DNA of 64,000 nt from Candidatus Binataceae bacterium (GTDB lineage Bacteria > Desulfobacterota > Binatia > Binatales > Binataceae): positions 1-64,000 of the forward strand of contig JADMIL010000004.1 in NCBI GenBank assembly GCA_015478645.1. Direction: 5' to 3'. Positions 1 to 3,260 of this stretch are shown in pieces; positions within the stretch are counted from its first letter, which is position 1; each line of letters opens with the position of its first letter. The notes below the pieces were generated by a model. That model was not told where the DNA came from. It saw only the letters and a program-made list of their open reading frames with translations, and made no database searches. A program made the translations under genes and the position numbers.

Positions 1-54
1 CGGCCGACCCCCTGCTCCCAAGGCAGGTGCGCTACCAGGCTGCGCCACGCCCCG
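1..54 (-). tRNA. tRNA-Pro (anticodon TGG), 3' part cut by window edge
   Basis: Reverse complement CGGGGCGTGGCGCAGCCTGGTAGCGCACCTGCCTTGGGAGCAGGGGGTCGG: acceptor, D-arm and anticodon arm CCTGC-CTTGGGA-GCAGG. Confidence 0.9.
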
Positions 55-385
55 AACCCCTATGGAGTACCATATGGGCGCCCCGCTCTCAACTCGCCTT
101 TGGCGCCAGATAAATTCCCGGCCCGCGAGGCTCCCGCCGCAAGATGAGCTAAACTTCTCTTGACATTCCCAATGCGCAATAAAAGTTAAAACGATAGTTA
201 TAAACTACAAAAACTATTATTCAGCTATACGTTCAATAAAAAACAAGAATATTCATTTTCAGACATTAATTTCATAGATATAACTGGAAATTTGGTGTAT
301 TTACCTGATTAAGACAATTAAATCATTGATTACGCCTTAATCACGATGCATATAGTGTCAAACTGGTTAGTCGCCCAGAAGTCAG

Positions 386-1456: not shown

Positions 1457-1748
1457 TTCCCCGGTTCTGACCGATTATCGCAGCGCTACGGTCCGGCAGA
1501 GCACCGACAATGCAATCGCGATGAGCCTGCGCAAGGAATAGCGGCGTGCCAAAGAATCCGGCAGGCCGCTAAGAGGACATCGTCAAAAAGCGAAATCCGA
1601 AGGTTCGCGGAGTCGCAAGTTGGCGAAATGCAAAAACGGTTTAGAATCAGGGTGATAAGATAATTTCGAGAATGAAACTGGCGAGTCCAGTCGCAAATTG
1701 AGAAAAAATAATTTCCGACTCTCTAGGAATTATCTGGGCTTTTTTCAC

Positions 1749-1762
1749 GGCATAGAGATTGC
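1749..1762 (+). promoter_or_regulatory. Candidate sigma-54 (-24/-12) promoter
   Basis: GGCATAGAGATTGCT: GG-N10-GC spacing with TT before GC; consensus TGGCACG-N4-TTGCW. Confidence 0.55.
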
Positions 1763-1772
1763 TGTAGTAACG

Positions 1773-1890
1773 GGTGGCGCTGCTATCTCCCCCCGAGAGC
1801 ATCAGCGCTTTGTCCCCAAGCAAGGCCGGGCTGCCGCGACCGTAGGTCCCCCCAACGTACGGTAATAAGGGTAGCCCGGCCGTTTTTTAT
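1773..1890 (+). ncRNA. Predicted small RNA: two hairpins, three UCCCC motifs, intrinsic terminator
   Basis: GCGCTG(1777)/CAGCGC(1808) hairpin; GGCCGGGCT(1824-1832)/AGCCCGGCC(1873-1881) with inner ACCGTA/TACGGT, followed by GTTTTTTAT. Confidence 0.55.
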
Positions 1891-3145: not shown

Positions 3146-3260
3146 CTAGGAACCTCTGCACAAGTTAGGTTGTCATTCTGAGCGCAGCGAAGAATCCCGG
3201 ATCCGGGACCCATGCGCTGCGCTCAGGGTGACACCAGAGCCTGGTGCAGAGGTTCCCTAG
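3146..3260. repeat. Dispersed palindromic repeat with terminal inverted repeats, copy 1
   Basis: CTAGGAACCTCTGCA...TGCAGAGGTTCCCTAG ends; core GTCATTCTGAGCG.AGCGAAGAATCCCGGATCCGGGACCCATGCGCT shared with 63192-63308. Confidence 0.9.

Follow-up and report, generated by a model that had tools for sequence, protein, structure and literature searches.

The question raised by this locus is whether the intergenic segment that follows a gene for a sigma-54 activator encodes a small RNA (sRNA) and, if it does, what would switch that RNA on and what it could act upon. The locus lies near the start of the window, by which we mean the whole 64,000-nucleotide stretch that was analysed (positions 1 to 64,000 of contig JADMIL010000004.1, Candidatus Binataceae assembly GCA_015478645.1, an uncultured soil bacterium). 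A sequence-only reading of this DNA had proposed a sigma-54 promoter driving a C-rich sRNA, with repeats upstream as activator sites, and had joined the sRNA and the adjacent activator in a regulatory pair. The genomes with which we compared it are all metagenome assemblies. Judged by its sequence conservation, the 114-letter element at 1776-1889 is a real sRNA, kept across the Binataceae together with a sigma-54 promoter and activator sites at fixed positions. We consider it likely that it forms a stand-alone sigma-54 sRNA gene whose three C-rich seeds pair, free of Hfq, with a limited set of mRNAs, and that the mRNA of an amino-acid permease is the best candidate among these.

Conservation and structure of the RNA

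A DNA search of 97 relatives gave matches in 27, with the homology starting abruptly at 1776-1777. A covariance model built on the RNA without the promoter (R1) matches in 33 of 41 Binataceae genomes. The same model did not find the RNA in 110 other Binatia genomes, and in a 396-genome sample of the phylum it gave, beyond the Binataceae, just a few weak matches, L089 and L091 among them, which we judged to be spurious. A second model combining promoter and RNA (R2), when searched against the 8 RNA-negative Binataceae and 29 other Binatia genomes, yielded no new members and nothing better than an E-value of 0.02. Two contigs named as Acidobacteriota and Nitrospiraceae (L032 and L033) bear the same RNA, and are probably mis-binned or misnamed Binataceae contigs. 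In a single genome (G019; L168, C24:130108-130685) the RNA occurs as a tandem triplet that fits within 0.6 kb, and a separate sigma-54 site precedes every copy.

The predicted fold of the RNA has a minimum free energy of -55 kcal/mol (z = -5.15), and none of 200 shuffles was equally stable. It bears out the arrangement described in the sequence-only reading, which had a hairpin with a CCCCC loop, a single-stranded linker and a second hairpin, and a T run follows; the stretch UUUGUCCCCAAGC between the two hairpins is nearly unpaired, and the alignment shows the same layout of two hairpins and a linker element. The three unpaired C-rich elements of that reading (loop 1, linker and loop 2) are likewise conserved in the alignments, with invariant columns among them, and the copies carry them as UCUCCCCCC/CUCCUCCCCC, GUCCCCAAG and GGUCCCCCC. 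In an alignment of 35 sequences (A4) base pairing is kept in 97.1% of 764 cells, and compensatory changes on both sides occur in 11 of 22 pairs. These values for pairing and double changes were reached by 0 of 500 shuffles, and slid controls pair at 27-47%. In some genera the T run is weak and the stem of hairpin 2 stays, thus it is not solely as a terminator that the stem is kept.

Promoter and activator sites

The GG and GC that had been taken for the promoter lie exactly where claimed (Table 1), and GG-N10-GC is present upstream in 36/36 listed RNA loci, some of which had been picked up by the RNA-only model. The distance from the GG to hairpin 1 downstream is 26-28 nt in 35 of these 36 loci; the remaining one is the divergent middle copy of the G019 triplet, which has its GG-N10-GC farther upstream. 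The first-round copies (n=31) have GGC[AG]-N6-TTGC at 13-15 nt from hairpin 1, and in the most divergent copies, those added by the RNA-only model, this position is taken by GGTA...TTGC. Since the promoter has no part in that model, its presence in the divergent copies is an independent confirmation.

Conserved blocks farther upstream, seen in alignment A2, take the form of the palindrome TCGCA-N3-TGCGA. With positions counted from the -24 GG and chance levels taken from dinucleotide-preserving shuffles, a strong match lies at -60 to -55 in 25 of 33 loci (against 0.20 in shuffles), and the palindrome recurs at -129 to -124 in 17 of 33 (with a score of at least 8; 0.19) and at -170 to -162 in 10 of 33 (0.2-0.3 for these windows). 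Two copies have a 12-13 bp shift in which both sites move together and the 70-bp spacing is kept, and in another genus the sites are at about -91/-162. The repeats AGTCGCAA[G/A]TTG that had been proposed as activator sites at 1611-1622 and 1689-1700 are both present. The second is the conserved proximal site; as for the first, the conserved distal site is centred slightly downstream of it and overlaps only its end. With promoter, sites and structure all conserved, the proposal of a sigma-54-dependent sRNA with activator sites upstream is supported. A search of the genome itself for a wider regulon, using the activator site together with the promoter pattern, was noisy and gave no clear further members.

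Because homologs occur family-wide with the same spacing, the same sites and covarying stems, these promoter, activator and stem features are not due to chance. The idea that the locus holds nothing more than a chance terminator next to C-rich sequence can appeal to the GC-rich context and to nothing further; it is refuted by the conservation, the covariation, the promoter and the activator sites, and we give it practically no weight.

Table 1. Coordinates of the RNA gene, its control sites and neighbouring genes in the window
Feature	Position	Strand	Remarks
tRNA-Pro(TGG) gene, 5' part	1..55	-	truncated by contig end; 55/55 nt identical to L183 tRNA-Pro
Receiver-less sigma-54 activator, 356 aa	386..1456	+	Sigma54_activat, AAA lid and HTH_8 (Pfam/NCBIfam)
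Upstream activator site 2 (UAS2), distal, TGGCGAAATGCAA	1621..1633	+	~127 bp before -24 GG; aligned position conserved
Upstream activator site 1 (UAS1), proximal, TCGCAAATTGAGA	1691..1703	+	~57 bp before -24 GG
Sigma-54 promoter GGCATAGAGATTGC	1749..1762	+	-24 GG 1749-1750, -12 GC 1761-1762; 10-nt spacing
Predicted sRNA transcript	1774..1888	+	~115 nt; from homology start 1776-1777, covariance model match 1776-1889, promoter spacing and terminator
Hairpin 1	1776..1809	+	CCCCC loop 1790-1794; from fold and covariation
Core seed UGUCCCCAAGC	1811..1821	+	most conserved single-stranded element; rank-1 duplex with permease 5' untranslated region
Hairpin 2 / terminator stem	1824..1881	+	inner stem, GGUCCCCCCAACG loop 1845-1857; from fold and covariation
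T run, intrinsic terminator	1883..1888	+	several other genera keep the stem but have a weak T run or none

Neighbouring genes and the adjacent activator

Of 16 regions scanned in relatives, 11 have a tRNA-Pro(TGG)/Arg/His/Lys cluster in divergent orientation to the RNA, at a distance of 243-739 bp in ten of them and 3076 bp in one. Going by this gene order, tRNA-Pro is the ancestral divergent neighbour of the sRNA. What had looked like a conserved neighbouring small protein ('c0') was a spurious reading of the tRNA genes. The protein genes flanking the RNA vary by genus, and in relatives the gene that comes next downstream is frequently encoded on the other strand. This bears on the possibility that the RNA is a cis-acting leader or riboswitch of the gene downstream, which in the window is the + strand acyltransferase gene that follows at 2029. 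Because the protein neighbours change and the next gene is so often on the other strand, the element does not behave as a leader, and many copies have a terminator-like end besides; this explanation is largely refuted and we regard it as very improbable.

The proposal of a dedicated regulatory pair, made up of the receiver-less activator and the sRNA, draws on their adjacency: the activator sites are what comes next after the activator gene. It could also draw on the ribosome-binding region of the genome's own pmoA-like gene, which matches the seeds, and on the best activator ortholog (63%, in G002:C40, L053 216-2553), which is divergent from a pmoC-like gene adjoining pmoA, a gene order that suggests a copper membrane monooxygenase to be under the activator's control. 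However, the adjacency is found in no other genome: the activator homologs of relatives are on contigs other than that of the RNA, and the RNA-bearing congeners G001 and G005 have no activator homolog below 1e-70. The activator gene sits between tRNA-Pro and the sRNA here alone, where the gap is widened to 1.7 kb, and the activator sites are conserved even where no such neighbour exists. By the test that the sequence-only reading had itself set, that of conservation beside the activator's orthologs, the pair falls while the sRNA itself stands, and we consider a dedicated pair quite improbable. Because its homologs are on other contigs, a strong match is absent in two congeners and relatives of it stand beside pmoC-like or XdhC-like genes, the activator is a recent neighbour, and what it regulates is probably something other than the sRNA. 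Several of its homologs with 50-56% identity (L055, L056, L058 and L062) lie beside an XdhC/CoxI-like gene and possibly form a separate conserved regulator pair; the XdhC and PmoC labels were assigned by eye from sequence. The conservation of the RNA, its promoter, activator sites and structure, the divergent tRNA-Pro synteny and the independence from the neighbouring activator are what the compared sequences themselves establish.

Candidate targets and mode of action

Our target scan of the genome itself covered about 0.4 Mb, or ~15% of the genome, with 387 gene starts. The exact complement of the core, GCTTGGGGACAA, occurs in the 5' untranslated region (5'UTR) of an amino-acid permease gene (AA_permease_2, Pfam), where it was seen while reading a sigma-54 promoter that had been found by pattern. 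For the core seed, this 5'UTR is the top-ranked of all 387 gene starts, and the 11-mer complementary to the core has at most 1-2 occurrences per genome outside the RNA itself. The orthologous permease 5'UTRs keep 10-13 nt of complementarity in 7/7 genomes of the genus, in two of them with G-U in place of a Watson-Crick pair, and the predicted duplex energy is about -25 kcal/mol in five genomes, -23.6 in G002 and -19.0 in G006. The sigma-54-dependent permease is probably the best target candidate, the C-rich patches of the RNA pairing with G-rich patches of the mRNA.

Several points weigh against this interpretation. The permease match precedes the start codon by ~40-50 nt and is not at the ribosome-binding site, it was noticed post hoc, and it is confined to one genus; the permease genes of relatives mostly have a GGC-N7-TTGC-like promoter yet lack the core complement. 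In addition, the two C-rich loops, when compared with the 387 gene starts, gave pairing energies weaker than those of shuffled elements, on which ground we rejected a general anti-Shine-Dalgarno action of the loops. The earlier suggestion that the C-rich elements pair with G-rich ribosome-binding sites is supported in part: in the strongest candidate the complement of the core is upstream of the ribosome-binding site, and the loops have no general affinity for gene starts.

A pmoA-like gene is suggested as another target by a G-rich ribosome-binding region in 8 of 11 genomes (our own count, made post hoc), for which the comparison is GGGG in 28 of the 387 gene starts of the genome itself. As a universal target pmoA was rejected, the gene being present in 13 of 32 genomes and the G-rich region occurring also in G012, one of the eight, where the RNA was not found. 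That the RNA is a sigma-54-controlled, Hfq-free riboregulator which tunes amino-acid uptake and, in the lineages having it, the copper membrane monooxygenase (pmoA-like) is a speculative extension to which we give little credence. If true, it would couple the oxidation of methane/alkanes or of ammonia to nutrient status.

A different use of the same features is conceivable. Since the identical motif is repeated at three exposed positions, the C-rich loops could titrate an RNA-binding protein with no mRNA pairing, in the manner of CrcZ (Hfq/Crc), whose sigma-54 dependence is shared (PMC8395346); the loops' want of a general pairing excess at gene starts would fit such a sponge. But a search for Hfq (PF17209) gave no match in 18 Binataceae genomes, while 5 of the 14 controls were positive, no known C-rich-binding partner was found, and a co-regulated 5'UTR contains a stretch of 11-13 nt complementary to the core seed. 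We therefore hold a protein sponge to be unlikely, and the RNA is most likely a trans-acting, Hfq-independent base-pairing RNA.

For such a base-pairing RNA, we infer transcription, the identity of the regulator, pairing in vivo and the direction of the effect from the comparisons above. A putative enhancer-binding protein whose gene lies elsewhere, and which is probably a response regulator, would bind the two palindromes (about -57 and about -127, counted from the -24 GG); sigma-54 RNA polymerase would then start the RNA near 1774, and the RNA would end at hairpin 2. Its exposed C-rich elements (loop 1, the core UUGUCCCCAAGC and loop 2) may then act as seeds without Hfq, pairing with G-rich stretches in the 5' regions of a few mRNAs and altering their translation. 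In the case of the permease, pairing upstream of the Shine-Dalgarno sequence could either free or block it. Activation as proposed for NrsZ and rhlA (PMC8395346) is possible, since in the permease 5'UTR of G003 a CCUCCUU could mask the AAGGAGG Shine-Dalgarno sequence.

Comparison with known systems

No Rfam family matches the RNA: when cmscan was run on the whole window at gathering thresholds and on 1450-2060 at E<=5, all that came up was a pair of matches to other families, both put down to chance. Among the full-text papers searched, none joins Binatota and 'sRNA'. For these two reasons we regard it as a new RNA family, for which promoter, activator sites, structure and seeds are all defined by comparison. 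It could offer a testable way into the post-transcriptional control of Candidatus Binatota, an uncultured phylum that is implicated in methylotrophy and alkane use.

For the seeds, the nearest likeness is to the LhrC sRNAs of Listeria, which are under LisRK control and are not known to have a sigma-54 promoter. LhrC1-5, known for their UCCC motifs, share with our RNA three C-rich motifs in a loop, a linker and a terminator loop, as well as several copies in some genomes, and they pair with mRNAs without needing Hfq (PMC4132741). They differ in the context of the motif and in their host, Listeria being low-GC and the host here GC-rich, and no Rfam match connects the two. The alphaproteobacterial ar14/NfeR1, which acts through three anti-Shine-Dalgarno motifs and has no sigma-54 signature (PMC10746234), is comparable in having three such motifs unpaired, and several copies of our RNA have CUCCUCCCCC in loop 1. 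Unlike the three hairpins of NfeR1, each with CCUCCUCCC, there are two hairpins and a linker here, with unrelated stems and sequence and again no Rfam match.

The promoter side is reminiscent of the Qrr sRNAs of Vibrio, which act with Hfq. Common to both are a sigma-54 promoter, palindromic activator sites upstream and multiplication of the whole unit, and the LuxO site TTGCA-W3-TGCAA (PMC11443567) is similar in form to TCGCA-N3-TGCGA, which is a resemblance and not an identification. The RNAs differ in sequence and structure, there is no match to the Qrr covariance model, and LuxO adjoins qrr1 whereas no such conserved neighbour is found here. NrsZ and CrcZ of Pseudomonas, sRNAs in carbon and nitrogen control, are of the same sigma-54-dependent type activated by an enhancer-binding protein, here predicted from sequence; NrsZ is proposed to open a 5'UTR structure that is inhibitory (PMC8395346). 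Sequence, length and hosts are different, and CrcZ acts by sequestering Hfq, for which no match was found here. Most likely the RNA resembles LhrC/ar14 in its seeds and Qrr/NrsZ in its promoter, and would unite the promoter logic of the latter with the C-rich multi-seed layout of the former in a lineage where Hfq was not found. That missing match bears on how sRNAs work in Binatota.

Other observations

Two further elements were seen along the way. Between two genes of the window, at 3147-3259, lies a short element resembling a miniature inverted-repeat transposable element, with the inverted ends AGGAACCTCTGCAC ... GTGCAGAGGTTCCCT. In genus g15, three loci (L179-L181; G020, G031 and G039) have another conserved sigma-54 promoter, which stands before a small membrane protein (MAATT...LSELPGAAFAFLTLAYIVLSFVGL).
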